Positions 9,509 to 21,002 of a DNA stretch of 22,248 nucleotides are shown in pieces; positions within the stretch are counted from its first letter, which is position 1, and each line of letters opens with the position of its first letter. The translations under genes and the position numbers were made by a program. Origin of the DNA: a virus; the IMG/VR virus record IMGVR_UViG_3300031673_000532, positions 1-22,248 of that record. One strand, 5' to 3'. The notes beneath the pieces were generated by a model that had not been told where the DNA came from, ran no database searches, and saw only the letters and a program-made list of their open reading frames with translations.

Positions 9509-9595
9509 GGCGGGCGTAGGCACGCCCGCCCTACAATGGCGGGGATCGGTGTCCCCGCCCTACAGTTGGCGGGGATCGGTGTCCCCGCCCTACAG
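9509..9595. repeat. Three REP-like hairpin repeats in a tail intergenic gap
   Basis: Three units of about 27-30 bases lie in the 138-base gap between tube and chaperone genes. Units two and three (9536-9565 and 9566-9595) are tandem near-identical copies with arms GGCGGGGA and TCCCCGCC around TCGGTG, each followed by CTACAG. Unit one (9509-9535) has arms GGCGGGCGT and ACGCCCGCC around AGGC and then CTACA. Its arm changes are matched on both sides, so the hairpin shape is kept. Short palindromes of this look with a GTAGGG border are, from memory, common as scattered host repeats in Chloroflexota and several uncultured phyla. Confidence 0.85.
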
Positions 9596-9604
9596 CTACA
9601 AGCG

Positions 9605-9628
9605 ATGACGGTCCAGTAGGTCCGTCAT
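9605..9628 (-). other. Imperfect palindrome just after the tail-tube stop
   Basis: ATGACGG then T, CC, AGTA, GG, T, CCGTCAT forms a stem of seven plus two pairs around one T-T mismatch, directly beside the tail-tube stop codon (9629-9631). It may protect the 3' end of the tube message or slow transcription; no U-run follows on the minus strand. Confidence 0.45.
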
Positions 9629-12200: not shown

Positions 12201-12244
12201 GGGCCCGGCCGGTCGAGCCGAGGTCACGGCAACCGGCCGGGCCC
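12201..12244 (-). other. Perfect 13-bp hairpin upstream of the gp36-like gene
   Basis: GGGCCCGGCCGGT (12201-12213) and ACCGGCCGGGCCC (12232-12244) are exact reverse complements around an 18-base loop. It fills most of the 72-base gap before the gp36-like gene and ends about 22 bases before its ATG, leaving the ribosome site free. No U-run follows, so an RNA processing, stability or pausing signal is more likely than a terminator. Confidence 0.6.
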
Positions 12245-13451: not shown

Positions 13452-13462
13452 GATGCAGCGAA

Positions 13463-13492
13463 GGCGAGGGGGGCCCGAAGGACCCCCTCGCC
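13463..13492 (-). terminator. UUCG-capped hairpin just after the capsid gene
   Basis: On the minus strand, GGCGAGGGGGTCC, loop TTCG, GGCCCCCCTCGCC form a 13-position stem with one mismatch, closed by a C(UUCG)G tetraloop, starting 12 bases after the capsid stop codon. Only a weak U-rich tail (TTCGCTG) follows. A partial terminator or 3' stabiliser that lifts capsid message over downstream genes fits best. Confidence 0.55.
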
Positions 13493-13503
13493 GGTCAGCT
13501 CGC

Positions 13504-14952
13504 TTACGACTTCTGGATCTTGATGACGTAGCGCCAGTCGCCGGGGGCGACGGTGTAGTTCCCCTGGGTGGAGAACCAGGCCCGACCGGTCTTCATCGCA
13601 TGCTCCGAGTCCGGGCCGAGGGTCTTCAGCGCGCTCGGCTCATTCTGGTACTGGACGATGAAGGGCTTCACCGGCCCGTTCGTCCACAGGATGAACCACT
13701 CGTCGGCGGCAGTCATCTCGGGTAGAGCCATCGGCCGGATGCGGCCCTTCCAGGTGTTGGTGGCGGTGCCACTCGTGCCGGACACCTGCTCCGCGGTGGC
13801 CAGCTTATCGAAGACCGGGAGATCCTCGGGGCGGCAGACCACGTCGAAGACGGCGTTGGCTCCGGATCCGATGCGGAGGTACTTTCCCTTATCATCCTTG
13901 AAGCGGTTAAAGGCGGCGATGGCGGTGCCGAGATCGACGGCGACATCCTCGATGTCGTCGCTGTCTCCGCCGGTGGTCAGGAAGTTGCTCTGCGTGCCGG
14001 AGTCTCCCTCGGAGTGGTCCGTGTCGACCATGTACTGGCCGTCATAGCAGAGCGTGGTCTCGGCGGCGGCGAACAGGGCCGCGATCAGCTCGTCGGGATG
14101 CTGCTTGGCGAAGGCGCCCATCTGCTGCATTGCCATCGCATACTCACCCAGCAGATCGGCCTGAAGCTCGCTGATCGGGATCTGGACGGTGGCCTCCCAA
14201 TCGCGCACTGTGACGGGGAAGGGCGTCTTGGTGTTGAGGACAGCGCCCTGGATCTCGTCGAGCCATTCCCTCATCCGGGGCGGCGCTCCGAGCGCGCGAT
14301 AGTCGATGGTGCGCTGATTTTTGACGACGCGGTTGGCAAAGGTGCTCGTGAGAGCCTGGATGCTCTCGTAGCCGGCGACGAAGAAGCCCTCGATGAGGAT
14401 CATCGTCTCCTGGTAGGAGAGGCTGGGCATCTCGACGCTGGCGGTCAGCGGGGCGATGCGGCCGACACCGGCGCGGGCGCCCTCGATGTCGAGTGCTCCA
14501 CCGGGGCCGCGGTTGGCGGCGGCGAAGACGAAGGTGGGATCGAGCCCGAGTCGGCGGGCGGTGGCGACTAGGGCGGGGCTGATTCCGCCGCTGACGATGT
14601 GGGCCGGCGATGCGCCGCCCATCTCTCCCTGTGGGACCATGCCCTTCTCCATTGCCTCGATCTGAGCGGTGACGTGCGCATCCCGCTTGTCGTCGGGGAT
14701 GTCCATCGCGGCCTCGGCGAGGCGCTTGGCATGGGCCTCGGAGAGCTGCGACTGGCCCTGCCTCACGGCGGCGAAGCGGGCGGTGATGTCGGCGAGCGAC
14801 TTCTCCCGCTTGGCGGTGGCCTGCTGCGCCTCGAGCTGGGCGGTCTTTGCTCGCTCGGCGGTGAGCTGTGTCTCCAGCTCGGCGGTCCTGTCGGCGGGCG
14901 GGGCGGGCGGATCCTGCTTGTCGCCCTGGGGCGGCTTCGTGGGTTCCGGCAT
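13504..14952 (-). CDS. Nested internal-start product: scaffold-capsid without protease
   Basis: Within the fusion gene an in-frame ATG at 14952-14950 (residue 192) begins MPEPTKPPQGDKQDPPAP. AGAGGAG (14967-14961) lies eight bases before it, a better ribosome site than that of the full-length start. The start falls exactly between the protease domain and the coiled coil. In Mu the scaffold Z is made from an internal in-frame start of the protease gene I, so the same device is expected here. The product would have 482 residues: scaffold plus gpT. That it is made is inference; the ATG and site are seen. Confidence 0.6.
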   Translation of the reverse strand: MPEPTKPPQGDKQDPPAPPADRTAELETQLTAERAKTAQLEAQQATAKREKSLADITARFAAVRQGQSQLSEAHAKRLAEAAMDIPDDKRDAHVTAQIEAMEKGMVPQGEMGGASPAHIVSGGISPALVATARRLGLDPTFVFAAANRGPGGALDIEGARAGVGRIAPLTASVEMPSLSYQETMILIEGFFVAGYESIQALTSTFANRVVKNQRTIDYRALGAPPRMREWLDEIQGAVLNTKTPFPVTVRDWEATVQIPISELQADLLGEYAMAMQQMGAFAKQHPDELIAALFAAAETTLCYDGQYMVDTDHSEGDSGTQSNFLTTGGDSDDIEDVAVDLGTAIAAFNRFKDDKGKYLRIGSGANAVFDVVCRPEDLPVFDKLATAEQVSGTSGTATNTWKGRIRPMALPEMTAADEWFILWTNGPVKPFIVQYQNEPSALKTLGPDSEHAMKTGRAWFSTQGNYTVAPGDWRYVIKIQKS

Positions 14953-15525
14953 TGGTCGATCTCCTCTGTGGTCAAAATTGGCTGCGGTGCAGACGAGAAT
15001 TCCGTCCTGCCGGGTCTCGGCCACCGCGGCGAGCTCGCTGAAAAACGGCTTGTTCGTGAGGGCATATCCCTCCAGCACCCAGGGGACTTTCTCCCCGGTG
15101 GTCGGGTCCTGGTAGGGGAGGATGGATGCGTCATACCAGCTCGGGCTGCCGTACGCGTAGAGCTTCTTTCCGACGAGGTCATCGCCGAGGGCAGTCCACT
15201 CGATCCGCGCCCAGAGGCCGTCGGCCTCCGCCCGCAGCTCCTTGATCCAGCCGGGGGCGGGACCTCGCTGATGGTTTTCGTCGACGGCGATCTCGATACC
15301 GAGGACGTTGGCGTCGAAGTTGCGGACGATCTGGGAGATGGCGTCGGGGGTGATCTCGTAGATGTCCAGGCCCATGAACTGCCAAGGCGCCTTCCAGCTT
15401 CCGATCGGCATGATGTGGAGCCAGACGCCGCCGCCCTCTGCCTCGGTGGCAGCGCGGGCGGCCGACAGGGGCATGAAGAACTGGATGGCCTGATTCGGTT
15501 TGACGATCGTCGGCGTCTCTGGCAT
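13504..15525 (-). CDS. Protease-scaffold-major capsid fusion (Mu I/Z + T homologues)
   Basis: A 673-residue protein joining three capsid functions. Residues 30-165 match the Mu gpI protease: WLHIMPIGSW, DENHQRGPAPGWIKEL with candidate catalytic His85, then SPSW with candidate Ser127, and LEGYALTNKPFF. Residues 205-300 are a charged coiled coil (AELETQLTAERAKTAQLEAQ) like a scaffold. Residues 370-673 match Mu gpT major head protein, including the segments YRALGAPPRMREWLDE, WEATVQIPISELQADLLGEY and TTLCYDGQYMVDTDH. The ATG at 15525 follows GGAG by nine bases; the frame is open from 15558. An internal in-frame ATG at 14952 has its own ribosome site. Mu encodes protease and capsid separately, so the fusion is unusual for this lineage. 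Confidence 0.85.
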   Translation of the reverse strand: MPETPTIVKPNQAIQFFMPLSAARAATEAEGGGVWLHIMPIGSWKAPWQFMGLDIYEITPDAISQIVRNFDANVLGIEIAVDENHQRGPAPGWIKELRAEADGLWARIEWTALGDDLVGKKLYAYGSPSWYDASILPYQDPTTGEKVPWVLEGYALTNKPFFSELAAVAETRQDGILVCTAANFDHRGDRPMPEPTKPPQGDKQDPPAPPADRTAELETQLTAERAKTAQLEAQQATAKREKSLADITARFAAVRQGQSQLSEAHAKRLAEAAMDIPDDKRDAHVTAQIEAMEKGMVPQGEMGGASPAHIVSGGISPALVATARRLGLDPTFVFAAANRGPGGALDIEGARAGVGRIAPLTASVEMPSLSYQETMILIEGFFVAGYESIQALTSTFANRVVKNQRTIDYRALGAPPRMREWLDEIQGAVLNTKTPFPVTVRDWEATVQIPISELQADLLGEYAMAMQQMGAFAKQHPDELIAALFAAAETTLCYDGQYMVDTDHSEGDSGTQSNFLTTGGDSDDIEDVAVDLGTAIAAFNRFKDDKGKYLRIGSGANAVFDVVCRPEDLPVFDKLATAEQVSGTSGTATNTWKGRIRPMALPEMTAADEWFILWTNGPVKPFIVQYQNEPSALKTLGPDSEHAMKTGRAWFSTQGNYTVAPGDWRYVIKIQKS
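14961..14967 (-). promoter_or_regulatory. Internal ribosome binding site of the nested capsid start
   Basis: AGAGGAG on the minus strand, eight bases upstream of the in-frame ATG at 14952. It lies between codons for the protease and scaffold regions, where a chance strong site exactly at a domain border is unlikely. Confidence 0.6.
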
Positions 15526-15544
15526 CGCTCGTATCTCCTGGGCC

Positions 15545-15587
15545 AAGAGAAAAGCCACCGCCCAGCCCGAAGGCTGCAGACGGTGGC
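15545..15587 (-). terminator. Terminator-like hairpin in the capsid leader
   Basis: On the minus strand GCCACCG (15587-15581) pairs with CGGTGGC (15560-15554). An inner stem CAGCC and GGCTG is closed by a C(UUCG)G tetraloop. TTTTCTCTT (15553-15545) follows at once, as in intrinsic terminators. The ribosome site CAGGAG (15540-15535) and ATG (15525) come directly after. Transcripts from the promoter at 15713-15685 must pass it, so it is either an attenuator or the 3' end of a small RNA. Confidence 0.75.
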
Positions 15588-15678
15588 CGTTTACCGGACC
15601 TCGCCTCGTGTGGAGGCGCTAGGTGCCACTGAGATCTTCAATTATAGGCGGCGGACCTAAGGACCGCCGTGCGTCCGT
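15545..15678 (-). ncRNA. Structured leader or small RNA upstream of the capsid gene
   Basis: About 134 nt from the predicted start point to the end of the terminator-like hairpin. It holds three clear stems: CGGCGG with CCGCCG (15669-15664, 15654-15649) continuing past a U-U mismatch into CC(UUA)GG; CGCCTC with GAGGCG (15618-15613, 15607-15602) around CACAC; and the UUCG-capped terminator hairpin. A GTGGC at 15628-15624 region could pair instead with GCCAC of the terminator arm. From memory, a conserved RNA class linked with Mu gpT genes in metagenomes (Mu-gpT-DE) has been described; whether this is a member is untested. Confidence 0.5.
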
Positions 15679-15684
15679 CGCTAG

Positions 15685-15713
15685 CTTATACCACACCGGA
15701 GGCGGGGAGTCAA
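15685..15713 (-). promoter_or_regulatory. Sigma70-type promoter for the capsid gene
   Basis: TTGACT (15713-15708), exactly 17 bases, TATAAG (15690-15685). Transcription would start near 15678, about 150 bases before the capsid ATG. The -35 box overlaps the TGA stop of the upstream gpF-like gene. A second TATAAT occurs at 15646-15641 but lacks a -35 partner. Confidence 0.75.
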
Positions 15714-16210
15714 GCGGCTTCCAACTCATACGGCTCGATCCGCCAGTCGATCCGCACCCGCTGCTTGCCCTCTTCGTCAACGTACGGCCGGGCCACGAAG
15801 TCTCTTCCCTCGGGCTGGGCAATGACCTTCAGCGGCTTGTACTTCTCGGGAAACCGCATGAAGTGTCCGTGCTCGTCTATCAGGTCCTGGCTCGGCCTCG
15901 AGTAGTCCGGCTCCAGCGGATCGCCGTTGGGATCGACCTCCGCCTTCCCCACGCCGGCCAGGATCCGCCGGCAGTTGATGTGGGCGGGCTGGGAGACGAT
16001 GGGATAGTCGGGGTCGTCGCGCCCGATGATCTGCCCGTCCATCTCCGCGCAGAGGTCGCAGCTCGCGTCGTCCAGCGCCTCGATGATCTCCATGTACGGG
16101 TAGTCATCGGCGGGGATGGCGGCGTCCCGGCCGATGTTCTCGAGCTGCATGACGACGATGTTCGCCGTCATCCGGAGCAGGTTGTTGATGATGTCGGGGG
16201 CTTCAGGCAC
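15710..16210 (-). CDS. Minor head protein, C-terminal domain of Mu gpF type
   Basis: A 166-residue protein. The segment around residues 40-80 (EIIEALDDASCDLCAEMDGQ, then PIVSQPAHINCRRILAG) is the Cys/His cluster ending Mu gpF/SPP1 gp7-type head morphogenesis proteins: CxxC, then P-x-H-x-N-C-R. Usual family members have 250-420 residues, and the helical N-terminal domain is missing here but seems present at the end of the portal protein. The start is taken as GTG at 16210, eight bases into the previous gene's end, with GGAAG seven or more bases ahead; an ATG at 16171 is an alternative. Its stop overlaps the capsid promoter. Confidence 0.7.
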   Translation of the reverse strand: MPEAPDIINNLLRMTANIVVMQLENIGRDAAIPADDYPYMEIIEALDDASCDLCAEMDGQIIGRDDPDYPIVSQPAHINCRRILAGVGKAEVDPNGDPLEPDYSRPSQDLIDEHGHFMRFPEKYKPLKVIAQPEGRDFVARPYVDEEGKQRVRIDWRIEPYELEAA

Positions 16211-18486: not shown

Positions 18487-20169
18487 CTACCATCCCCTCG
18501 GGGAGAACTTCTCCCCAACGATATGCTCGCTCGGCTGTCCTCGCATCGGAGACCGGAAGTGCCCCGCCGGTGCGAGGCCCAGGGCTTCCTGGGCGCTGAC
18601 GCCGGCGAGCATGTGGGCGAGGGCGAAGGCGAAGTGGTTTTCGACGCCCTTGCGATACTCGAAGCTGCCATCGGACTTCCGGTCCTTCACCACCCGGCCG
18701 AGGTGCTCTCTCACCCGCTGCGTCTGCGGCAGTCCCGGCCTGGGCAGGTAGAGCTCTCCGGAGAGGAAGCCGGCGACGAGCTCGTCGAGCAGGTCGGTCC
18801 GGTTCATGGAGATCTTCCGGACGGGCTTCGTGTCGGCATCCTCTTCGCCCACGGTCCGCTGCTGCGCGCCGGTGTAGATGATGGCGCCGTTGCCGAGCGC
18901 CCGGCACAGCTCCTTCGCCTTCGTCTTCTCCGGCATGGCGTCGATGATGAATGCGGCGACGTTATGATCCCGGAGCCGCTTCTGGACGAGGCCCCAGTCG
19001 GGCGTTTCTTCGAGCCACACGACCTTGCCCACGCCGCCCGCATACCGGGCGATGGCGAGGTGGATGACGTCGCCGACGTCGATTCCGGCGAACGGGATCC
19101 CCAGCGGGAGATCCGCTCCCTTGCCCACCGGGCTGATGCCCCATGTGCCGCAGCGCTCGTTCAGAACAACATCGGTGAGGGGTTTGCGATCGCCCGCAAA
19201 GGGCAGCCCGAGAATCGAGATATGGAAGCGCTCCATCCGGTTCGGGCGGGTCTGCGCATGGTCCCACTGCCCGGCCACGAGATCGGCGTCGACGTGGGGA
19301 CCGTAGAGCTGGGAGATGTGGTAGCCGGAGACCTCGCGGCCCGGGTGCATGGCCACCCATTCCCCATCCGCCCGGTGGAGCTTGGCGTGACAATTGGGGC
19401 AGGCGATCCGCCACTCGCCCCGGATCTGGACGAGGACGTCGGGGAAGCTCAGCTCGAGCGCCGTCCACGTGCGGCAGCGGCGGCAGCGGATCTTCCAGAA
19501 CTGCATATCGGAATGGACGAAGCGCTCGTCGATGTCCATCTCGGGCACGCCGGGCTGCGAATACCACCACTCCCGCTTATAGCTCGAATGGAGGAGGCGG
19601 TCCTGGGCAAACTCGACGATCTCCGGGTTGAGCTCCGCCACCTCGTCCATCATCAACATGTCCAGCGGCGTGCTCTTCACCTCGGCCATGACCTGTGTTG
19701 AGAGGAAGTAGGCTTTGCCGTCGCGGACGCGCTTGAGCCGGACGTTATCGGCGCTGCCTCCGCCGCGCCGCTTCGGGCGATTGGGCGAGCGCCATTCCTC
19801 TTCGGCGACGAGGCGGGTGATCTCGTCGGAGTTGTCGATGATGGGATCGACGATGCCCTGGACGAAGCTCCTCATGCGATGCTGGGTGTCGAGGAAGTAG
19901 CCGACGTGGAGGCCGCCCATCGCCGTGTGGATCAGCGTGCCGACCGCCAGGGTCGAAGCTCCCACCTGGGCGGCCTTCTCGATGATGATCACGCGGCTCT
20001 CATCGCGGGCGATGGCCTCGAGGTACTCATGCCCCTTCAGCGTCCAGGGCTGCTTCGGACGCGGGCGGACGTGGCGCTGGAGGAAGGTGAGGCGGTCCTC
20101 GACGTCAGCGCTTCGGCCGGCGGCTTCTGCGACTGCTTGTCTGAGCTCTGCTGCTTTGGTTGCTGCCAT
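18487..20169 (-). CDS. Terminase large subunit, GpA type
   Basis: A 560-residue DNA-packaging motor. The ATPase has a Walker A-like loop EKAAQVGAS (64-72, without the classical GK[ST]), and Walker B DMLMMDE (170-176). A zinc ribbon follows with Cys229, Cys232, Cys257 and Cys260, a hallmark of lambda GpA-family enzymes. The C-terminal nuclease has GIDVGD (Asp364) and FIIDAMPEKT (Asp410) as likely metal ligands. Mu itself uses a different terminase class, so the head module is mosaic. The first 65 bases overlap the end of the small-terminase gene in another frame; no later start preserves the ATPase, so the overlap is probably real. Confidence 0.85.
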   Translation of the reverse strand: MAATKAAELRQAVAEAAGRSADVEDRLTFLQRHVRPRPKQPWTLKGHEYLEAIARDESRVIIIEKAAQVGASTLAVGTLIHTAMGGLHVGYFLDTQHRMRSFVQGIVDPIIDNSDEITRLVAEEEWRSPNRPKRRGGGSADNVRLKRVRDGKAYFLSTQVMAEVKSTPLDMLMMDEVAELNPEIVEFAQDRLLHSSYKREWWYSQPGVPEMDIDERFVHSDMQFWKIRCRRCRTWTALELSFPDVLVQIRGEWRIACPNCHAKLHRADGEWVAMHPGREVSGYHISQLYGPHVDADLVAGQWDHAQTRPNRMERFHISILGLPFAGDRKPLTDVVLNERCGTWGISPVGKGADLPLGIPFAGIDVGDVIHLAIARYAGGVGKVVWLEETPDWGLVQKRLRDHNVAAFIIDAMPEKTKAKELCRALGNGAIIYTGAQQRTVGEEDADTKPVRKISMNRTDLLDELVAGFLSGELYLPRPGLPQTQRVREHLGRVVKDRKSDGSFEYRKGVENHFAFALAHMLAGVSAQEALGLAPAGHFRSPMRGQPSEHIVGEKFSPRGW

Positions 20170-20890
20170 TGGGCTTCGATGCCTTGGTCGTCTTCTTCTT
20201 CGGTGGCTGCGGTGTACCGCCGGCCGTGAGCGCCTTCATCGGCTGCGGTGCGAGGTCGAGCTCGGCGAGGATCTTGTTCGCCTTCTCTGGCTCATCCCGG
20301 AGCTGGGAGATGATCCACTGGCGGGCGATGACGTCGGCGCGGCCCTGCTTGAGGGCGAGCTCGACGGCCCGGAGTTCGACCAGCTTCTGTTTCAGCTTGC
20401 GATCCGCGCCGAGGGCGTCGATCTGGGCGATCGTGCGGGCGAGCTCGGCGAGCGACTTGATGAGCTTCGCATCGGCGCTCGCGGCGAGCGCATCCATGTT
20501 GATCTTGTTCACTGCCTGAAGCGCCCGCATGGCGAGGCTGCGGGCGAGGGCGGAAGCGATCGTGGCGGGCGTGTCCGGATCCATCGCCGCCTGTTCCGCC
20601 CGGAGCCGCCGCTCGATCTCCAGGGCGTCGTGATAGTGGCCGAGGAAATGATTGTGGTAGTGGCGGCTGAGTGCCTTATCGGTGACCCTAATCCCATGCG
20701 TGCCGAGGAATTCGATCACTTCCTTCTGCTCGTGGCCCATCATGAGCATCTCGGTCATCTCGCCGAAGCGCTCGGGGTGGGTGCGGTAGATGCGACAGAT
20801 CGAGCAGCGGGAGGCCAGGGGGAAGATCGGCACCTGGATCTCGGTGGTGAATGTTCCGACCGGCTTGACGGCATCGCCTTTGCGTGGCAT
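20105..20890 (-). CDS. Zinc/HTH protein, candidate small terminase subunit
   Basis: A 261-residue protein. Residues 25-90 carry CSICRIYRTHPERFGEMTEM, followed by VTDKALSRHYHNHF: the pattern CxxC, HPxR, helix, HTH, then RHxxNH found in a common phage DNA-binding family. The middle is helical with leucine-rich repeats (SLAELARTIAQIDALGADRK), suited to oligomerisation, and the tail is very basic (KKKTTKASK, SRRSRRPKR). Position directly before the large terminase supports recognition of phage DNA for packaging. The ATG at 20890 follows GGGGTG by six bases; the open frame up to 20983 runs through a terminator hairpin and is not used. Confidence 0.65.
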   Translation of the reverse strand: MPRKGDAVKPVGTFTTEIQVPIFPLASRCSICRIYRTHPERFGEMTEMLMMGHEQKEVIEFLGTHGIRVTDKALSRHYHNHFLGHYHDALEIERRLRAEQAAMDPDTPATIASALARSLAMRALQAVNKINMDALAASADAKLIKSLAELARTIAQIDALGADRKLKQKLVELRAVELALKQGRADVIARQWIISQLRDEPEKANKILAELDLAPQPMKALTAGGTPQPPKKKTTKASKPNGSNQSSRAQTSSRRSRRPKR

Positions 20891-20912
20891 GGCGTTCACC
20901 CCATTCAAACCA

Positions 20913-20957
20913 AAAGCCGAGGTCAGGGCCGCGCGAGCGGCCTGTGACCTCGGCTTT
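20913..20957 (-). terminator. Long perfect hairpin before the terminase genes
   Basis: AAAGCCGAGGTCA (20913-20925) and TGACCTCGGCTTT (20945-20957) are exact reverse complements, and inside them GGCCGC/GCGGCC pair around a four-base loop. On the minus strand TTTTGGTTTG follows. It lies only about ten bases after the predicted start point of the nearby promoter, so a transcript from there would meet it immediately: attenuation, termination of the early operon, or a short RNA of about 60 nt. Confidence 0.8.
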
Positions 20958-20973: not shown

Positions 20974-21002
20974 ATTGTACCATGTCGGGAACGGAACCTC
21001 AA
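20974..21002 (-). promoter_or_regulatory. Sigma70-type promoter for the terminase/head operon
   Basis: TTGAGG (21002-20997), exactly 17 bases, TACAAT (20979-20974). Start expected near 20967. The -35 box overlaps the TGA stop of the gam gene (21001-20999), just as the capsid promoter overlaps a stop codon. Confidence 0.6.

Follow-up and report, generated by a model that had tools for sequence, protein, structure and literature searches.

Introduction

Late control in Mu-like phages is the textbook example of an activator that works on weak promoters. In Mu, the late promoters before lys and I depend on C and depart from consensus in both the −35 and the −10 element (PMC4461284). In the Q systems of phages lambda and 21 and in the AlpA system, a promoter is followed by a terminator (PMC6606751, PMC9371919). 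In the Q promoters, the region transcribed first contains a −10-like sequence (PMC6606751), and the pause element of PalpB lies at −1 to +5 (PMC9371919).

Here, we describe two predicted promoter-terminator units in a Mu-like viral contig (IMGVR_UViG_3300031673_000532), the whole 22,248-nt stretch of which is referred to as the window. The recognised genes of the window all lie on the minus strand, in the order gam, probable terS, TerL, portal, F-like gene, protease-gpT fusion, and more head and tail genes.

Predicted promoter, leader and terminator before the capsid gene

The original prediction described a TTGACT-17-TATAAG promoter with a structured leader of some 134 nt, a hairpin capped by UUCG, TTTTCTCTT behind it and then a ribosome site, and all of these were seen as claimed. 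The features of this region, designated unit 2, and of the gene behind it are as follows:

15685..15713, minus strand: unit 2 promoter, TTGACT-17-TATAAG with extended −10 TGG (from sequence, promoter scan and four-phage comparison)
15678, minus strand: predicted transcription start of unit 2, placed from the −10 position only
15650..15668, minus strand: stem 1, GGCGGTCCTTAGGTCCGCC, a palindrome similar to copies elsewhere
15622..15642, minus strand: leader core AYTGAA-N(1-9)-GGCRCC, common to all four leaders
15602..15618, minus strand: hairpin 2, CGCCTC-cacac-GAGGCG, its position kept and its base pairs different in each homologue
15545..15588, minus strand: predicted intrinsic terminator of unit 2, a bulged GC-rich hairpin (15588-15553) with a UUCG loop, then TTTTCTCTT
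15539-15534, minus strand: ribosome-binding site AGGAGA of the capsid fusion
13504..15525, minus strand: fusion of a Mu I-like protease with the gpT-type major capsid protein, 673 aa, ATG at 15525

The −35 hexamer TTGACT (15713-15708) overlaps the stop codon of the F-like gene and is followed by a 17-nt spacer ending in TGG and by TATAAG (15690-15685). About 134 nt of structured leader lie between the promoter and the end of the terminator, and the ribosome-binding site and ATG of the capsid gene fall within about 25 nt of the latter. The predicted fold of the leader (−63.2 kcal/mol) was more stable than those of shuffled sequences (−49.6, sd 3.6; z −3.7). A simple generic scanner detected neither the unit 2 promoter nor its terminator, owing to the final G of the −10 and the bulge in the terminator stem; in a scan permitting both, the promoter ranked top in the window. 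In the window the capsid protein is fused to the protease, whereas the gpT-bearing regions checked in bacterial genomes encode it on its own, as a gene of about 300 aa. Two gene gaps, one following the capsid gene (13455-13495) and one preceding the gp36-like gene (12201-12244, both minus strand), also hold long GC-rich hairpins without T-tracts.

A second unit before the probable terS gene

A second promoter-terminator unit, absent from the first reading and designated unit 1, was found at 21002-20911 (minus strand), preceding the gene beside TerL:

20974..21002, minus strand: unit 1 promoter, TTGAGG-17-TACAAT with extended −10 TGG (from promoter scan and relatives)
20911..20955, minus strand: predicted intrinsic terminator of unit 1, AGCCGAGGTC...GACCTCGGCT then TTTTGG, with the hairpin at 20955-20915
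20105..20890, minus strand: probable terS, the first gene behind unit 1, ATG at 20890

The gene at 20105..20890 gave no match to any family and is probably the small terminase subunit, based on its position beside TerL. As at unit 2, the −35 overlaps an upstream stop codon, here that of gam. The hairpin starts about 12 nt past the predicted start and the terminator ends about 60 nt downstream, and the RNA of about 60 nt would be nearly all terminator. A −10-like hexamer (AAGAAT, GAGAAT or GACAAT) is present at about +1 to +8 in three of the four unit 1 variants, while no consistent −10-like pause element was found across the unit 2 variants. The unit 1 GAAT is also base-paired to the U-rich tail in the window, which may be another reason for its conservation.

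Comparison with described late-control systems

Like lambda PR'-tR' (Q, and phage 21 Q), the locus combines a predicted strong sigma70 promoter with a predicted intrinsic terminator, with late genes that would be expressed by read-through. It differs from the lambda Q system in having two units instead of one and in lying within a Mu-like head module; neither a Q-like protein nor a Q binding element was identified here, and a −10-like pause sequence occurs only in most unit 1 variants. The AlpA-PalpB-tB system of Pseudomonas aeruginosa is also built of a promoter and then an intrinsic terminator, and the −10-like hexamer in the first transcribed bases of most unit 1 variants is close in position to the PalpB pause element. 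That system, however, controls a host lysis operon, and no AlpA homologue was identified here. With respect to Mu, unit 2 matches PI closely in position, before the protease-capsid genes, and unit 1 is roughly like Plys in opening the packaging genes. Whereas the Mu late promoters are weak and activator-dependent, both units here are near-consensus with an extended −10. No strong promoter-then-terminator pair was found in Mu at the places of Plys and PI; its G-I gap holds a terminator-like hairpin about 100 nt before gene I with no strong promoter ahead of it. Phages RC1 and Spike were likewise without such a pair. The junction of genes G and I, before the protease gene, is also where moron inserts such as the Spike anti-CRISPR lie, but no inserted protein gene is present here and unit 2 ends directly before the ribosome site of the capsid gene.

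We propose, with moderate confidence, that both units are late promoters of high strength and that antitermination opens their operons, in the manner of lambda PR'-tR' or AlpA-PalpB. Our confidence is not higher because unit 2 has no clear pause element and because no antiterminator was recognised in the early genes present; most of the early region is missing from the contigs.

Conservation and promoter class

The promoter-terminator pair before the capsid gene was found in all three other phages compared, whose capsids are 65-72% identical to that of the window. Unit 2 is thus present in 4/4 phages covering the site (window, L003/L009, L004/L010/L013 and L002/L014), and, as judged from sequence, its layout is no chance find, since it recurs in three related phages. 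Unit 1 was found in the window, L011, L012/L015, L010/L013, L014 and L073. The sample comprises four unit 2 leaders and four clearly distinct unit 1 lineages. L073 was obtained via a terS search and checked only once the pattern was already defined; in it, unit 1 is the sole promoter-like site scoring 10 or more. In L014, the upstream neighbours at both units differ from those of the window, and the units still adjoin terS and the capsid gene. The layout, its conservation, the linkage to the downstream genes and the promoter class can be read directly from the DNA. As a separate observation, the DNA of the window and that of L009 are 87% identical until about position 15603, midway through the leader, and align again only inside the capsid gene; a mosaic boundary near 15603 is possible.

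Two promoter-terminator pairs occur in the window, whereas 200 dinucleotide-preserving shuffles averaged 0.005 and never exceeded 1, by promoter and terminator criteria that were borrowed from well-studied bacteria and may not be those of the host. In the close relative L015, an early-region ORF (1695-2498) encodes an S-layer homology domain, a possible hint of an S-layer-bearing host; nearby ORFs carry ASCH and DUF4031 domains. A 17-nt spacer and an invariant TGGTA are found in 8/8 distinct promoters of units 1 and 2, and TTGAC, a 17-nt spacer and GTGGTAT in 4/4 phages at unit 2. The spacers, where a Q/AlpA-type unit would have a binding element between −35 and −10, are C-rich (53/98, p ~1e-4), with CRTGG common to most. 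When six contigs were scanned on both strands, T[T/A]GA-N16-TGGTA was restricted to unit 1 and unit 2 sites; the pattern was written knowing these promoters, and the scan shows specificity and no independent discovery.

The T-tracts mostly consist of 4 or 5 T followed by an interruption, and those of L002 unit 2 and L073 unit 1 are poorer. Given these short or interrupted tracts, the terminators may be leaky, which favors a model in which each terminator stops a constant share of transcription and sets packaging and capsid output without a dedicated factor; the weaker tail of L073 and the absence of a recognised antiterminator gene among the early genes present point the same way. We regard such fixed attenuation as unlikely, since capsid is needed in bulk and it would make little sense to throttle a strong promoter with a highly stable, conserved hairpin, and since one promoter class and layout at two operons points to a common switch. 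It is highly improbable that the hairpins are not terminators of these promoters' transcripts at all, serving instead as stabilisers of the mRNA 5' end or as insulators against upstream read-through. In favor of this reading, other gene gaps carry GC-rich hairpins without T-tracts; against it, T-rich tails follow the hairpins in the units compared, and one would look for an insulator ahead of the promoter and not between promoter and gene.

Leader elements and RNA searches

Most of the leader outside the AYTGAA...GGCRCC core could not be aligned across the four phages, and its length and sequence vary greatly. In hairpin 2 and in the terminators of both units, pairing is preserved by different bases in relatives. 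The original prediction named a lack of compensatory changes in homologues among the findings that would count against it, but hairpin 2 and the terminator are kept with different base pairs in three relatives; from a hand alignment of four leaders, which falls short of a full covariation test, these changes are suggestive of compensation. Stem 1 was ruled out as a functional core, being missing from the L004 leader and resembling a repeated palindrome. A similar palindrome is found near 9607-9626 in the window, and in L003 the palindrome occurs three times, with two copies behind the terminator; it was not enriched in genomes of the phylum of an Armatimonadetes MAG. The intergenic region 9510-9626 (minus strand) holds a cluster of GC-rich palindromes: two tandem copies of TGGCGGGGATCGGTGTCCCCGCCCTACAG at 30-nt spacing, a third, related copy and the stem 1-like palindrome.

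Membership in Mu-gpT-DE (RF03012) and a phi29-like packaging RNA function, both raised as hypotheses by the original prediction, found no support. None of the Rfam families passed threshold in the window, and Mu-gpT-DE and phi29-type pRNA were absent at E up to 5 in 15400-15850 and at E up to 1 in three homologues. Unit 2 is like Mu-gpT-DE in being an RNA element near a gpT gene, and unlike it in giving no covariance-model match. A CRISPR-repeat mimic was considered for the ATTGAA motif and rejected, with no CRISPR family of Rfam matched. A BLASTN search of the leader against phages gave no match, and in a DNA-pattern scan of viral contigs for the promoter and leader core only L004's own contig was real; the other 14 matches were chance-like, with neither terminator nor capsid context seen. 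A profile of the protease-gpT protein matched in 101/291 genomes of the Armatimonadetes MAG phylum to which L008's genome belongs, with distant gpT genes, which suggests that Mu-like prophages or head modules are common in that phylum. In 19 gpT-bearing regions checked there, no promoter-terminator pair was found just before head genes.

The leader core motif and the hairpins kept in position could indicate that unit 2 is an autonomous, moron-like small-RNA gene whose terminated RNA acts in trans, while late transcripts read through, and in the Pseudomonas phage Spike the junction ahead of the protease gene serves as a cargo slot holding anti-CRISPR genes. We consider this rather unlikely, as unit 1 has the same promoter class, yet its RNA is only about 60 nt and almost all terminator, and as the leader changes greatly in length and sequence and has no Rfam match. 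The free small RNA of the original prediction is possible for unit 2 and accounts poorly for unit 1. The HK022 put RNA modifies polymerase in cis, and the unit 2 core (AYTGAA, GGCRCC and hairpin) might itself be functional, either as such a polymerase-modifying signal or as a cargo small RNA at the junction before the protease gene, in a lineage not known to make an RNA of this kind. We think this quite improbable.

A further possibility is that the leader itself decides between termination and read-through, by alternative RNA structure or by translation of a short leader ORF. In three of the four leaders, an upstream segment can pair with the terminator's 5' arm before the 3' arm is made, and a 12-codon GTG frame lies within the window leader. 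A structure switch is unlikely because the L004 leader has no stable competing structure and because the unit 1 hairpin, starting so soon after the predicted start, leaves no room for one; the frame has no good ribosome site and no start codon at the matching place in L002. Neither an antiterminator structure nor a leader peptide is conserved, and we view intrinsic attenuation or a riboswitch as very unlikely. The capsid-level control of the original prediction is well motivated as termination and read-through, since the capsid ATG lies about 25 nt beyond a terminator that polymerase has to pass, but unsupported as classical attenuation by alternative leader structures.

Discussion

Promoter and terminator activity, antitermination and the factor behind it are predictions of the model proposed here. 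Both promoters are near-consensus sigma70-type with an extended −10 and would fire without an activator. Each would run into an intrinsic terminator ending about 60 nt (unit 1) or 134 nt (unit 2) downstream, before its operon, which comprises the terS-TerL-portal packaging genes behind unit 1 and the protease-capsid genes behind unit 2; in the default state, only short terminated RNAs would be made. In the window, the distance from T-tract to start codon is only about 21-25 nt at both units, and no further promoter fits in this space; as none fits after the terminators, polymerase must cross a terminator to express either operon. The arrangement suggests that the virion genes are off until RNA polymerase reads through the terminators. 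A phage factor acting in the lytic cycle, and probably loading at the promoter or the early transcribed region, would make polymerase terminator-resistant, and resistance to both terminators would open both operons together. Promoter-loaded antitermination would need only the promoter and the first bases, which is what both units share.

If the antitermination model is true, these phages would represent a Mu-like lineage with a gene order similar to that of Mu but a different regulatory logic. The model predicts a new antiterminator, and the conserved site pattern would provide a handle for finding it in related contigs.
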